In this document: positions 6,432 to 33,758 of the stretch, piece by piece
Layout of the letters: each line of letters opens with the position of its first letter
Position numbering within the stretch: the first letter of the stretch is position 1
NCBI RefSeq assembly: GCF_021729845.1
Contig: NZ_CP063397.1
Span: 1,936,001-2,000,000, forward strand
Reading direction: 5' to 3'
Length of the DNA: 64,000 nt
Source of the DNA: Rhizobium sp. SL42
GTDB taxonomy: Bacteria > Pseudomonadota > Alphaproteobacteria > Rhizobiales > Rhizobiaceae
Made by a program: the position numbers and the translations under genes
The notes under the pieces: model-generated
What the model was told of the DNA's origin: nothing
What the model saw: the letters and a program-made list of their open reading frames with translations, nothing else
Database searches by the model: none

Positions 6432-7337
6432 ATGAAGATCACGGCTGTACTCAATCGCGACGGTGGTACCTTCAAGACCACCGACATGCAGGCCTATTGC
6501 GCCAGCGCCGTCAAGGCGTTCGCGGCCAAGGGGCATGATCTCGATTGCGCCGTGGTCGGCGGCGACGAGGTCGTTTCGGCGCTCGAAAAAGCCAGCATTT
6601 CCGGTGCGGATGCGCTGGTGGCGGGTGGCGGCGACGGCACGATTTCGGCCGCGGCGGGCGTCGCCTGGAAAGCCGGACTGCCGCTTGGCGTGGTTCCGGC
6701 CGGCACGATGAACCTGTTTGCCCGCTCGCTGAAACTGCCGCTGGATATCTGGAAGGTGCTCGACACGCTGGCCGATGCGCAGGTCCAGTCCGTCGACATC
6801 GCAACGGCCAATGGCCGTCCCTATGTGCACCAGTTTTCAGCTGGCCTTCACGCGCGCATGGTGCGCATGCGCAATTCGATGAATTTCGCCTCCAAGCTCG
6901 GCAAGATGCGCGCCAGCACCAATGCCGCCTTCGGCGTGATGCTGGATCCACCGCGTTTCGAGGTGATCTTCGACATCGACGGCGACGGCCGCAGCGACGA
7001 ACGGCCGGTCTCGGCCATTTCGGTGTCCAACAACCCGCTGGGCAACAATGCACTGTTCTTCGCCGATGACCTGACCACCGGCAAGCTTGGCGTCTATCTC
7101 GCCGATCCACTCGAGCCGACGGGCGTGTTTTCGCTGGCTTTCGATATCATGCGTGGGCGCTTCACGGACAATCAGGCGGTGACCGCCTCGACTGCCAAGG
7201 TACTGCGCCTGCATTTCCCCAAGCATCGTCAGGGGGCAGCCTGTGTTGTCGACGGTGAACTGCTGCGCATGCCGCGCGATGTCGAGATCAAGATCCACGC
7301 CGGCGAGTTGAAGGTGCTGGTTCCGGCGACGGCGTAG
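6432..7337 (+). CDS. Diacylglycerol-kinase catalytic-domain protein (lipid kinase-like)
   Basis: A 301-residue cytoplasmic protein of the DAGK/sphingosine-kinase/YegS fold. The phosphate-binding motif GGGDGT is at residues 65-70 and PAGTMNLFA follows, as in bacterial lipid kinases. The C-terminal half is the beta-rich DAGK accessory part with VVDGELL near the end. The start at 6432 is set by an AAAGGACG ribosome-binding site 4 bp upstream; an upstream in-frame start at 6315 would add 39 residues with no family likeness. Substrate not determined: diacylglycerol, phosphatidylglycerol or another lipid are possible. It is monocistronic and followed by a palindromic repeat. Confidence 0.88.
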   Translation: MKITAVLNRDGGTFKTTDMQAYCASAVKAFAAKGHDLDCAVVGGDEVVSALEKASISGADALVAGGGDGTISAAAGVAWKAGLPLGVVPAGTMNLFARSLKLPLDIWKVLDTLADAQVQSVDIATANGRPYVHQFSAGLHARMVRMRNSMNFASKLGKMRASTNAAFGVMLDPPRFEVIFDIDGDGRSDERPVSAISVSNNPLGNNALFFADDLTTGKLGVYLADPLEPTGVFSLAFDIMRGRFTDNQAVTASTAKVLRLHFPKHRQGAACVVDGELLRMPRDVEIKIHAGELKVLVPATA

Positions 7338-29560: not shown

Positions 29561-30496
29561 CTAGTTTGCCGCCGCACGCTCCAGAACGGGCACACACATG
29601 TCGAGATCATGCGAGGCGAGGTGTGCGTATCGCATGGTCATTGTCAGCGTCTGATGGCCGAGCCACATCTGAACGCGTCGGATGTCGATTCCGCCCTGGA
29701 CAAGACGGGAAGCGCAGGTATGGCGCAGCACATGCGGTACCACGTCCTTGTCGTCGCCGAGACCGATCGCCTCCTTGGCATTGTGCCAGGCGATCCGGAA
29801 CTTTTGCTGGTCGATCTCCGAGAACGGGCCAGGGAAACGTCGATCCGAGGCCGAGATCGCCGCCGCCGCCCGGTGGGTGAGGGGAACAGAGCGGGAGCGA
29901 CCCGACTTGGTCACCCAGAAGGTGGCACGGTGCGCGTTCAGATCGCCCCAGCGCAGGTCCGTGCCTTCACTGAGACGAGCGCCGGTATCCACCAGGAACG
30001 TGCAGAAGCGGTAGTACAGTTCGTTATGCGCGCGGATTTCGGCAAACAGCAATTCCTCTTCGTTTCGATCGAGGAAGCGGATACGCCCGGCCTTTTCCTT
30101 TTCGCGCTTGAATTCGGGCAGACTGTAGACATCTCCCATTTTATACGCCTTTCGCAGCAGTTTGCTTAAGGCCGCCATCTTTCGATTGATGGTGGCGTTG
30201 CTGTTACCGCGTTTGCGCAATTTTCCAATCAACTGGTCGAGCATCTCCTGGGAAAAGGTCGAGAAGCCCGGAATATCCAACATGTCATGAAGCTCGGCGA
30301 TGAAGTTAGTGACGTTGTATTTGTGGCTGCCATTGAGCCAGAGGATGTCGCCATATTTCGCGAACAGCGCGCGCAGCGATGTGTCGCGAACTTCAAAAAG
30401 CTTGTTCGCGGACCCATACTGATAATGAACGGAATAGGAAGGCACTTCGACGGCTGTGTCGAATGCCTCGCTTTTTTCCGATATCATGTTGTTCAC
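29561..30496 (-). CDS. Tyrosine recombinase/phage-type integrase, complete and isolated
   Basis: A 311-residue site-specific recombinase of the XerC/phage integrase type. The N-terminal SAM-like core-binding domain (about 30-125) precedes the catalytic domain with Arg174 (TGARLSE), Lys198, His255 and Arg258 (HVLRH), His281 (LGHQ) and nucleophile Tyr290 (MRYAH), all present. GTG at 30496 is used as start because GAGG lies 7-10 bp upstream; ATG 30487 is an alternative. No excisionase, phage or transposon gene accompanies it. Its neighbour on the left is a terminator, and on the right is a porin gene that carries one arm of a long inverted repeat. The natural target is unknown. Confidence 0.93.
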   Translation of the reverse strand: MNNMISEKSEAFDTAVEVPSYSVHYQYGSANKLFEVRDTSLRALFAKYGDILWLNGSHKYNVTNFIAELHDMLDIPGFSTFSQEMLDQLIGKLRKRGNSNATINRKMAALSKLLRKAYKMGDVYSLPEFKREKEKAGRIRFLDRNEEELLFAEIRAHNELYYRFCTFLVDTGARLSEGTDLRWGDLNAHRATFWVTKSGRSRSVPLTHRAAAAISASDRRFPGPFSEIDQQKFRIAWHNAKEAIGLGDDKDVVPHVLRHTCASRLVQGGIDIRRVQMWLGHQTLTMTMRYAHLASHDLDMCVPVLERAAAN

Positions 30497-30762: not shown

Positions 30763-31800
30763 TTAGAACGAACGCTGCAGACGAACGAAGCCGTCCCATA
30801 CGCCGTCATCAGCTGCGTCTTCGTCGAAGTAGTTGACGGCAACCTTGGCAGTCAGGCCTTCGGTGACCTTGTAGTCGAGGGTCAGGCCGGCCTTCCAGGC
30901 GTCGTTGCTGGAGTCGAAGTCGTCAGCCGAAACCAGGCCATAGCTGTCCCAGTACTGAACGCCAGGCGTCAGGGTGAACTTGTCGCTCAGCTTGACGGCG
31001 TATTCGGCAGCAACGGTCCATTCGGAAACGTCGTAGTAGGCGTTTGCGCCGGTCGAGTAGATGGCGGCCAGGCCGAATGTGCCCGGACCAACGTCAGCCA
31101 GCAGCTTTGCACGGATCGCGCCGTTTTCTGCTGCGAAGTCGTAAGAACCGAGAAGTTCTGCCGTTACAACGCCGAAGGTCGCAGCGATCTGGCCTTCAAC
31201 GCCGAGGTTGTCGTTGTCATCATAGAAGGTGTCGAAGTCGCCGGAATAGGTCTTCGTCAGCTCGTCGAGGAAAACGCCAGCCGAGAATGCATCGGCAGTG
31301 TACTGATAGCCGATTGCGTTGATGCGGTTCGAGCCGAGATCGTCGGTTTCGCCCGAGAGATCGTTATCCCAGTAGTTGTACATGTAGCCGACCTTCAGGC
31401 CGCCGACAGTGATGTAGGCTTCGTCGATCTCGAGGTCGTTGCCCGAACCGCTGTCGGTGCCATCGCTTTCAGCCCAGGTGCGGACTGCGATGTAGGAACC
31501 AACGGTGCCGAGTTCGGAATCGCTCTTGGCTTCGAAGTTGATCTTGGCGCGGGTGCGCATGTTCCAGTCGAGGTCTTCGTTGTCGTCTTCGGAGAACTGG
31601 GTCTCGAAGCGAACGTAACCGCTGATCTTGAGGCAGGTTTCCGAACCCGGGATGTAGAAGTAGCCGGTGCCGAAAGCGTCGCAAACGCGAACGTATTCCA
31701 TCGGCTCAGGCTCGGCTGCAACGATAGCGTCGGCAGCCTGGGCGCCAGATACTACAGCGAGAGCTGCAGCGGAGCCGAGAAGAAGGCTCTTGATGTTCAT
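30763..31800 (-). CDS. Outer-membrane porin, Omp2/RopA type (leftward copy)
   Basis: A 345-residue outer-membrane beta-barrel of the alphaproteobacterial porin_2 family. The signal peptide MNIKSLLLGSAAALAVVSGA(QA) is cleaved after AQA. The mature N-terminus EYVRVCDAFGTGYFYIPG is the Omp2 hallmark, with a second Cys in ETCL. The C-terminus FVRLQRSF ends in Phe, the beta-barrel assembly signal. It is trimeric and allows diffusion of small solutes. The start at 31800 is set by the GGAGG site and by identity with its divergent partner (32769-33758). Its first 155 nt and leader are almost the same as those of the partner. Confidence 0.95.
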   Translation of the reverse strand: MNIKSLLLGSAAALAVVSGAQAADAIVAAEPEPMEYVRVCDAFGTGYFYIPGSETCLKISGYVRFETQFSEDDNEDLDWNMRTRAKINFEAKSDSELGTVGSYIAVRTWAESDGTDSGSGNDLEIDEAYITVGGLKVGYMYNYWDNDLSGETDDLGSNRINAIGYQYTADAFSAGVFLDELTKTYSGDFDTFYDDNDNLGVEGQIAATFGVVTAELLGSYDFAAENGAIRAKLLADVGPGTFGLAAIYSTGANAYYDVSEWTVAAEYAVKLSDKFTLTPGVQYWDSYGLVSADDFDSSNDAWKAGLTLDYKVTEGLTAKVAVNYFDEDAADDGVWDGFVRLQRSF

Positions 31801-31817
31801 TATTGACCTCCAGTCAA
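31646..31817 (-). repeat. 172-bp inverted repeat, left arm (start of leftward porin)
   Basis: Read on the minus strand, this segment matches 32752-32923 on the plus strand over 172 bp with only two mismatches (both in the Ala-Ala codons of the mature N-terminus). It spans the Shine-Dalgarno region, the whole signal peptide and the first mature residues through CCCGGG. Codon-level identity beyond what protein constraint would require points to recent conversion or duplication. Confidence 0.9.
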
Positions 31818-32054
31818 TTATAGACCAGAGCGCGTCAATTATTTCCATATTATTATTTGAAATTAGATAGTTAGTGGAGTATTGCCCGCAGGCGCCCGCG
31901 TCGTGCCGCCTGCTTTCGGCCGCTGAACGTGCCAAAATGGTGCCCAGGTGGCATAGCCGCCGACGCTTGGAGAGGGCGTGCGCAACCATGAACCTGTGCA
32001 GCTCTGCAATGCAGGCACCACACGCAATCGAAGGAACTTGGGAATTTTGTTGAA

Positions 32055-32145
32055 TGGCGGAGAGGATGGGATTCGAACCCACGATACGCTTTTGACGTAT
32101 ACTCCCTTAGCAGGGGAGCGCCTTCGACCACTCGGCCACCTCTCC
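32055..32145 (-). tRNA. tRNA-Ser (anticodon GCU)
   Basis: Read on the minus strand from 32145, the gene folds as a class II tRNA: acceptor GGAGAGG paired with CCTCTCC (32059-32065), discriminator G at 32058 and CCA encoded at 32055-32057. The anticodon stem CTCCC/GGGAG holds loop CTGCTAA, so the anticodon is GCT (reads AGC and AGU serine codons). A variable arm with ACG/CGT pairing and T-loop GTTCGAATC are present. It lies between the two divergent porin genes and is transcribed in the same direction as the leftward porin. Confidence 0.96.
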
Positions 32146-32768
32146 GGTGCGGCCTGATTATGTGCTTGAATCGGCGATTGCAAGGGATTTTCGCATCTCT
32201 GCACATTTTACCTGACCGGGTGCTCGATTTTCCAGGTCTTTGCACGCGGGACATGGCGCCGGGACCTGGCCGATTCTCGAATCGCAAAACTTTTCTGCGT
32301 GTGATTCTGCTTCGCCGGGCAAAAACCGGTGGCCGCTCGCAGCGTTTTGCGTCAATCGCCGCGCTATATATAAAGGAGACGCACGACGCGGTTGCGAACA
32401 GGAATTGCGCTGCAGCAGGGGATCTCGGTGTTTTTGGCCGGAAATTGATCGATGTTTTGAGCTGGCCCAACCCGTCCTCCGGCCGCTAAGTCCCCATTTC
32501 CTAAGGGGTTTCTTAACGAACTGTAAATTTTTAATGATCCCTGGACACGGTTTTGTGTCCTTTGAGCAACAATGCAGACGGAAGGGTTCCCGGTTTCTAT
32601 TCATTCCGCTGTTTGGTGATTGCATGACCGGCCGCGTTTTGTATTTTCAACATCGGAAGCGAGGCGGTGGATCGTCCGTCTTCTGAGAAACCGACGGGGA
32701 TGGGGCAGGAACTGCTGTCCTTCAGCCAATTTGGCCAGACCCATACGAAACTTGACTGGAGGTCAATA
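32146..32768. other. Long leader/intergenic region between tRNA-Ser and rightward porin
   Basis: No convincing gene in 620 bp. The region must carry the tRNA promoter (leftward) and the rightward porin promoter. Visible landmarks are a TATATATAA stretch near 32364-32372, an AT-rich block near 32510-32535 and the hairpin GGACAC-GGTTTT-GTGTCC (32543-32560) followed by TTTGAG, which could end a short transcript or shape the porin leader. No CRISPR or coding frame with a domain was seen. Confidence 0.5.
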
Positions 32769-32923
32769 ATGAACATCAAGAGCCTTCTTCTCGGCTCCGC
32801 TGCAGCTCTCGCTGTAGTATCTGGCGCCCAGGCTGCCGACGCTATCGTTGCTGCTGAGCCTGAGCCGATGGAATACGTTCGCGTTTGCGACGCTTTCGGC
32901 ACCGGCTACTTCTACATCCCGGG
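32752..32923 (+). repeat. 172-bp inverted repeat, right arm (start of rightward porin)
   Basis: Inverted partner of 31646-31817. The identity starts at TTGACTGGAGGTCAA, 17 bp before the start codon, and ends sharply after the CCCGGG of the mature N-terminus, where the two porins diverge. Only two mismatches lie in the 172 bp. Confidence 0.9.
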
Positions 32924-33758
32924 CACCGAAACCTGCCTCCAGATCGGTGGTTGGGTTCGTGCACAGGTCGACTTCGGACCGAACGCTGACTCTGGTTCGG
33001 ACAACGACTACGACATGCGCGCTTCGGCCCTCGTAACGGTTGACGCAAAGTCGGACACCGAGCTCGGCGTTCTGCAGTCCTTCATCGCTCTCGAAAGCGA
33101 CATCTCCGTCGACAACGAAGCCCAGGGCTTCTACGCTGACGAAGCCTTCCTCGCTCTCGGCGGCTTCAAGGCTGGCTGGTTCTACAACTGGTGGGATCTG
33201 GGTATCGCTGGCGAAACCGACGGCCTCGGCAACCAGACCGAATTCGTCTCCTTCTCCTACACCTACACCGCAGAATCCTTCTCGATCGGCGCTTCGGTTG
33301 ACGAAATCCAGTCCATCGTGACGGATACCGCTGACATCGGCCTGTCGGGCACTGTCACCGCGACCTTCGGTCCGGCTTCGATCGCCATCCTCGGCGGTTA
33401 CGACTTCGACGTAGAAGAAGGCGCAGTTCGCGCTATCGGTTCGGCTGAAGTCGGCCCGGGCACCTTCTACCTCGCTGGTATCTACTCGTCTGACCCGAGC
33501 GCCTACTACGACGACGCTGAATGGTCGGTTGCTGCTTCCTACGCCTTCAAGGCAACGGACAAGCTGACCGTTACCCCGGGCATCCAGTACTGGGATAACC
33601 TCGAAGACGGCGGCGCATACGTCGGCGGCGACAAGCTGAAGTACGGCATCACGCTCGACTACAAGCCTGTTGAAAACCTGCTGGCCCGTCTGTCGGTTCA
33701 GTACGACGACGTAACCGACAACCCGTACGGTTACTTCCGTCTGCAGCGCGCATTCTAA
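32769..33758 (+). CDS. Outer-membrane porin, Omp2/RopA type (rightward copy)
   Basis: A 329-residue porin_2 family outer-membrane barrel with the same signal peptide and mature N-terminus (EYVRVCDAFGTGYFYIPG, then ETCL) as the leftward copy and the C-terminal FRLQRAF ending in Phe. After about residue 55 it differs strongly from its partner in loops and length, so the two probably form pores of different selectivity. Codon choice is highly biased (Ala GCT, Thr ACC, Tyr TAC), a sign of strong expression. A good terminator follows. The arrangement of two divergent copies around about 1 kb is the one known for Brucella omp2a and omp2b. Confidence 0.95.
   Translation: MNIKSLLLGSAAALAVVSGAQAADAIVAAEPEPMEYVRVCDAFGTGYFYIPGTETCLQIGGWVRAQVDFGPNADSGSDNDYDMRASALVTVDAKSDTELGVLQSFIALESDISVDNEAQGFYADEAFLALGGFKAGWFYNWWDLGIAGETDGLGNQTEFVSFSYTYTAESFSIGASVDEIQSIVTDTADIGLSGTVTATFGPASIAILGGYDFDVEEGAVRAIGSAEVGPGTFYLAGIYSSDPSAYYDDAEWSVAASYAFKATDKLTVTPGIQYWDNLEDGGAYVGGDKLKYGITLDYKPVENLLARLSVQYDDVTDNPYGYFRLQRAF

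Follow-up and report, generated by a model that had tools for sequence, protein, structure and literature searches.

A putative DNA-inversion switch between paired porin genes of Rhizobium sp. SL42 and its relatives

Porins are abundant surface proteins of rhizobia. A stretch of 64,000 nucleotides (nt) from Rhizobium sp. SL42 (contig NZ_CP063397.1, positions 1,936,001 to 2,000,000; here termed the window, in whose coordinates positions are given) holds two divergent porin genes beside a tyrosine recombinase gene. Comparison with relatives suggests that this locus is probably a DNA-inversion switch, in which the linked recombinase would move one expression leader between the two porins. Invertible expression switches are already known as a kind, and promoter switches with tyrosine recombinases, such as fimS with FimB/FimE, are the comparable system. 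Like fimS, this locus has inverted repeats around a segment with a promoter region, a putative one here, and a tyrosine recombinase gene next to it. The SL42 locus differs in that two alternative genes would be served, instead of the ON and OFF states of one operon; in that the ribosome-binding site falls within the candidate site, beyond which ∼180 bp of coding sequence are homogenised; and in that the recombinase falls far under the NCBIfam cut-offs for tyrosine-type DNA invertases.

Among porins, the closest described locus is Brucella omp2a/omp2b, two linked genes in opposite orientation ∼830 bp apart that exchange sequence, with expression reported for omp2b only (PMC7050475). The omp2 account is one of gene conversion over the genes, and its available text contains neither "inver" nor "recombinase" (PMC7050475). 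The initial annotation had likened the SL42 porins to this pair, fairly so for layout and for conversion: going by the published description, both loci have two linked Porin_2-type genes in opposite orientation with conversion between the copies. At the SL42 locus, however, the arms cover only the 5' ends; the spacer is reversed from species to species, and there is a linked recombinase. Two papers on Brucella inversion (PMC4081994, PMC5596481) concern, in their available text, an unrelated 944-kb inversion, and were set aside. Paired porins are also known within the Rhizobiaceae, as ropA1 and ropA2 of Sinorhizobium and Agrobacterium. RopA1 is named as a receptor of many phages, S. meliloti phages among them, and in a phage-resistant Agrobacterium mutant ropA1 and ropA2 are fused by a 1,203-bp deletion (PMC10132094, PMC6992544); as described there, that event is a deletion fusing the genes, unlike the inversion proposed here. 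In the open-licence literature searched we recognised no description of inversion of this porin locus. Nor did we recognise there the architecture proposed here, in which two porins would share a single leader that shuttles between them, the candidate sites coincide with the ribosome-binding sites, the coding arms are homogenised, and a recombinase outside the invertase models occurs in 45 of the 109 sampled genera.

Arms, dyads and leader

The left porin (345 amino acids; 30763–31800, minus strand) and the right porin (329 amino acids; 32769–33758, plus strand), both identified from the list of open reading frames and Porin_2 (PF02530), form a linked, divergent pair with 51% mutual identity. 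A sequence search of the right porin against solved structures gave no match. The initial annotation had described a 172-bp near-perfect inverted repeat with two differences, which in both porins takes in the ribosome-binding site, the signal peptide and the first few residues of the mature protein. All of this was reproduced: the left arm (31646–31817, minus strand) and the right arm (32752–32923, plus strand), its reverse complement, are 172 nt long and mismatch at 31714 and 31717 only. The sharp end claimed for the repeat was also seen, with mismatches resuming downstream from offset 172 as the porins diverge and only 11 of 40 positions agreeing directly upstream. A looser repeat search took the arms to 31610–31817 and 32752–32959 (208 nt, 95% identity). 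When the 5.17-Mb genome was searched with a 251-bp left-arm query, these two arms were the only matches.

To this picture the present analysis adds a dyad at the arm edges, a tRNA-Ser gene, a single conserved leader and the adjacent tyrosine recombinase. Each arm begins at a dyad, TTGAC-TGGAG-GTCAA, that surrounds the Shine-Dalgarno sequence. The left dyad (31803–31817, minus strand; core GACTGGAGGTC at 31805–31815) and the right dyad (32752–32766, plus strand; core at 32754–32764) are the candidate crossover sites. The dyad reads CTGAC-TGGAG-GTCAG in Sinorhizobium and Mesorhizobium, and TTTTGAC-TGGAG-GTCAAAA in Metarhizobium and Neorhizobium. Two draft contigs, L093 (from genome G072) and L120 (from G327, oriented), start exactly at the dyad, as expected of a repeat edge; such starts are a convenient marker for these loci in short-read assemblies.

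Between the arms lies a spacer of ∼0.93 kb (31818–32751), found in both orientations among relatives. It contains a tRNA-Ser(GCT) gene (32055–32145, minus strand; ARAGORN, Rfam RF00005), which serves as an orientation marker. One spacer end carries the conserved leader (32693–32751, plus strand), with blocks GGGATGGGGCAGG, GCTGTCCTTCAGC and CCAGACCC. In this assembly the leader is joined to the right porin, and the left porin lies at the end that lacks it. Over 40 nt of the leader, mean pairwise identity was 0.93 (37 genomes), against 0.34 at the opposite spacer end (36 genomes). The leader was recognisable in Sinorhizobium, Shinella, Neorhizobium, Mesorhizobium, Nitratireductor and Chelativorans.

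The number of leaders was counted in named loci, the best 80 of 294 named relatives by recombinase, which were scanned by site pattern; this set apparently shares many records with the same-genus set used below, so the two are not independent. Exactly one leader was present in every one of the 59 loci with two sites; in 24 of them it adjoins the porin on the recombinase side, and in 35 the opposite porin. The other 21 comprised 14 without a readable site, six with one site, and L165, with four sites and one leader. This last locus, from Neorhizobium galegae, has four porins beside its recombinase.

We infer that the leader end would hold the main promoter. By eye, a putative promoter-like TTGCAT-16-TATTTT was noted upstream of the leader (32620–32647, plus strand), in a stretch partly conserved across genera; a consensus promoter scan did not report it, finding one site where 1.2 were expected by chance. 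Some 200 nt up to the leader end (32551–32751) contain blocks conserved across genera, including a hairpin-like GCTG-TCCTT-CAGC. These blocks upstream of the leader may possibly belong to a regulated 5' untranslated region, judging from their conservation; the leader region matched no Rfam family at E up to 1.

Spacer orientation among relatives

Same-genus loci were oriented by their flanking genes and assigned to state A, as in the window, or state B, with the spacer reversed. In state A the tRNA lies 218–289 nt from the left porin and 615–650 nt from the right, and in state B 586–716 nt from the left and 200–257 nt from the right. Three loci departed from these distances: G024, whose near side measures 3192 nt; G035, with 342 nt; and G008, which is ambiguous at 290 and 670 nt. 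The G024 locus (L056) has ∼3 kb of extra DNA inside the spacer, from left porin to tRNA (positions 7084–10263 of L056). Extra porins were seen in G035 (L067), with two on each spacer side, and in G026 (L058), with four in a row. In the one-contig assembly of G082 (L101, L137) the entire spacer and tRNA-Ser are missing and the porin bodies abut at about codon 46–50, reflecting either assembly collapse or real loss.

The initial annotation had raised conversion or inversion, and had asked whether a single orientation prevails. Between species both orientations occur, with the order of the flanks unchanged, which is the trace expected of inversion. On a flank-protein tree of 36 genomes (14 A, 22 B) at least eight orientation changes were needed; label shuffles (2000) gave 11.4 ± 1.4 changes, with 2.6% at or below eight. 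This tree omits loci that were cut off by a contig end, spacer-less or ambiguous (G001, G008, G016, G018, G060, G072, G076, G081, G082) and G075, with too few flank genes on its contig, and keeps the recombinase-less G013. A smaller tree of 24 genomes needed seven changes. Repeated inversion between species is thus supported by comparative sequence evidence.

Assemblers might orient a segment between long inverted repeats at random, and most of these genomes are drafts, with several contigs ending within the arms. Such an artefact is nonetheless very unlikely to account for the two states, for both occur in assemblies of five contigs or fewer (A in G000 and G074; B in G010, G014, G032 and G062), both leader sides are found in records titled chromosome (right in L161, left in L197), and the states track clades better than shuffled labels do.

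Closely related genomes in opposite states give the clearest view of the event. G030 and G034 align on the same strand along 2001 nt of recombinase-side flank (86% identity) and 798 nt of the left porin body (93%), and the right porins match at 66% over 456 nt; the spacer matches over 814 nt on the opposite strand and not at all on the same strand. G030, a draft in state B whose near relative G034 is in state A, has an interrupted recombinase frame (L062). In the pair L143/L154 the flank is 91% identical over 1866 nt, with 945 nt of spacer matching on the opposite strand and 0 on the same. In each of the 14 listed pairs with differing states the opposite-strand match is the larger, and all eight same-state control pairs match on the same strand only.

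These pairs bear on a reading by gene conversion alone, in which each gene would receive leader and arm sequence from the other by copying, with no present-day inversion. Homogenisation of the arms within genomes (see below) is what such copying would leave, and Brucella offers a precedent in the available account (PMC7050475). Against it, the entire spacer, tRNA included, is reversed between relatives, and copying should often give two leaders or none, whereas two-site loci have one. As a full explanation we hold conversion to be most improbable. A mechanism driven by the tRNA was likewise set aside because leader position varies among five Shinella loci with no tRNA between the porins: L174 differs in leader side from L161, L163, L166 and L171.

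The linked recombinase and the candidate exchange sites

The gene next to the left porin encodes a tyrosine recombinase of 311 amino acids (29561–30496, minus strand), the proposed inversion enzyme. It matches PF00589 (Phage_integrase) at 96.5 bits, against a cut-off of 27.1. Residues R174, K197, H255, R258, H281 and Y290, which we take to be the catalytic R-K-H-R-H-Y set, are invariant in an alignment with nine relatives. The protein scored under the cut-offs of the NCBIfam Xer models (XerD, 89 vs 329.6; XerC, 83.7 vs 335.15) and of the tyrosine-type DNA invertase models (35.8 vs 222 and 30.3 vs 221). Apart from itself, it has just two matches in its own genome, and these are distant. The nearest named record was Rhizobium sp. 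18065, at 97% identity, in a search that may omit the window's own record; other near records were from Ciceribacter, Peteryoungia, Rhizobium rosettiformans and Agrobacterium albertimagni.

The recombinase is associated with porins. A porin match adjoins the recombinase in 79 of the 80 named loci, and in the exception, L185, the contig ends ∼300 bp away. Within the genus, 44 of 63 genomes have the recombinase (E < 1e-100), as do 139 of the 394 genomes sampled across the family. Wherever recombinase-positive loci of the genus were assembled across the porin pair, the porins are divergent. A different layout, with porins that converge on the recombinase, occurs in eight of the 59 readable loci (Sinorhizobium, Ensifer, Metarhizobium); site-to-site exchange would have the same effect there.

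The 19 genus genomes without a close recombinase match are mutually related and so represent few independent cases. Sixteen have same-strand porins (G004, whose completeness is only 66%, and G007, G011, G012, G015, G026, G029, G033, G063, G064, G068, G069, G083, G084, G085 and G086), and where these tandem loci were readable the second porin has a degenerate site. Three have a divergent pair: G008; G013, with one site degenerate and arms that differ near the start codon; and G065, whose left porin is a remnant. In recombinase-less loci of the genus, the block of tandem porins and tRNA itself occurs in either orientation relative to the flanks (one way in L044, L045, L048, L065, L111, L112 and L115, the other in L040, L061, L114 and L116), perhaps through an older inversion or one of RecA type.

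Across the family, GACTGGAGGTC precedes an ATG on both strands in 112 of 139 genomes with the recombinase but in only 28 of 255 without (Fisher p 9e-45, treating related genomes as independent). The loose form of the motif pattern meets chance matches, giving three hits in this genome, one of them away from the locus; a stricter pattern found the two porin sites only, and its reversed control none.

At the spacer end without the leader the two halves of the dyad covary: 29 distinct sites gave 128 Watson-Crick pairs against 99 ± 5.5 in shuffles, a value reached in 0 of 2000, although the shuffles ignore relatedness.

Exchange has also left its mark on the arms, which are closer within genomes than between them, the trace expected of the conversion that the initial annotation had considered. 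Arm mismatch was measured per 30-nt bin from the start codon. For 25 pairs (L122–L154) the successive bins gave 0.000, 0.016, 0.041, 0.027, 0.041 and 0.095 within genomes, against 0.013, 0.116, 0.146, 0.105, 0.098 and 0.140 between genomes. For 31 pairs (L155–L201) they gave 0.005, 0.030, 0.044, 0.055, 0.054 and 0.066 within, against 0.071, 0.253, 0.250, 0.244, 0.202 and 0.206 between. In nine recombinase-less tandem pairs, arm mismatch begins at 0.081. That within-genome mismatch is lowest beside the dyad fits an exchange that begins at the arm edge, but the first bin has low power because it is highly conserved.

Several observations weigh against a recombinase-driven switch of the spacer. 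Covariation at the leader end is weak (14 sites, 48 pairs vs 44.5 ± 2.1, reached in 7% of shuffles). The need for eight changes, against 11.4 with shuffled labels, indicates that flipping recurs but is not free, with phylogenetic signal kept. On a 50-row porin-body tree of the genus, near or far position changes 16 times, but side also changes nine times, so the porin bodies themselves switch side. Four Mesorhizobium pairs also show 162–173 nt of same-strand spacer match. In L196/L198, the best opposite-state Mesorhizobium pair, one locus's left porin resembles its partner's right porin (92.6%), and the porins there seem to have turned together with the spacer. Inversion of the whole porin block fits that pair; as a general account it is disfavoured in the genus by the side and near/far counts just given, and it is ruled out for G030/G034. 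G008 lacks the recombinase and has two intact sites, and the two-strand motif is missing from 27 of the 139 genomes with the recombinase (some contigs end at the locus). Finally, of the 255 family genomes that lack the recombinase, 199 have one or more copies of GACTGGAGGTC, pointing to another role for it as well.

That last count favours the strongest rival, in which the inversions are real but arise by ordinary RecA-type recombination between the arms, the recombinase serves another purpose, and the dyad acts in the mRNA, as a hairpin over the ribosome-binding site. Near-identical arms of ∼190 bp are enough for homologous recombination, the T-G found at leader-end pair −2/+2 (32 of 62) could still pair in RNA, and porin conversion in Brucella is described with no recombinase in the available text (PMC7050475). 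Pulling the other way are the near-constant adjacency of recombinase and porin in named loci, the prevalence of same-strand porins or a degenerate second site where the recombinase is absent, and arm identity that, allowing for the low power of the first bin, peaks at the upstream edge and not mid-arm. We judge the RecA reading unlikely, though not negligible.

Proposed switch and its significance

In the proposed switch, the ∼0.93-kb spacer has one promoter and leader at one end and is flanked by inverted dyads overlapping the ribosome-binding sites of the two porins. The porin-adjacent recombinase would act at the dyads, or just next to them, to invert the spacer, and each inversion would hand the leader over to the opposite porin, presumably within strains as well as between species. 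Strong expression is predicted for whichever porin the leader adjoins, which in this assembly is the right one. Exchange would start beside the dyad, and conversion would spread from there into the coding regions, keeping the signal-peptide regions alike. RecA recombination between the arms may give the same result or act in addition.

The role of RopA1 as a phage receptor, together with omp2b-only expression and conversion in Brucella, makes phage escape or the tuning of permeability the likely benefit: by analogy, the switch would change a surface porin that is a phage receptor in rhizobia, or adjust permeability.

By a narrow margin of belief, we favour the broader view that this is a family-wide, previously undescribed form of phase variation, in which a dedicated recombinase flips one leader between two major Rhizobiaceae porins, with ribosome-binding-site dyads as the crossover sites, and the receptor porin is exchanged in one step. 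If borne out, such a switch would offer a recombinase-based reading for paired porin loci so far attributed to conversion alone. And if it holds in the roughly one third of sampled Rhizobiaceae genomes concerned, clonal symbiont cultures may be mixed in phage sensitivity and permeability.

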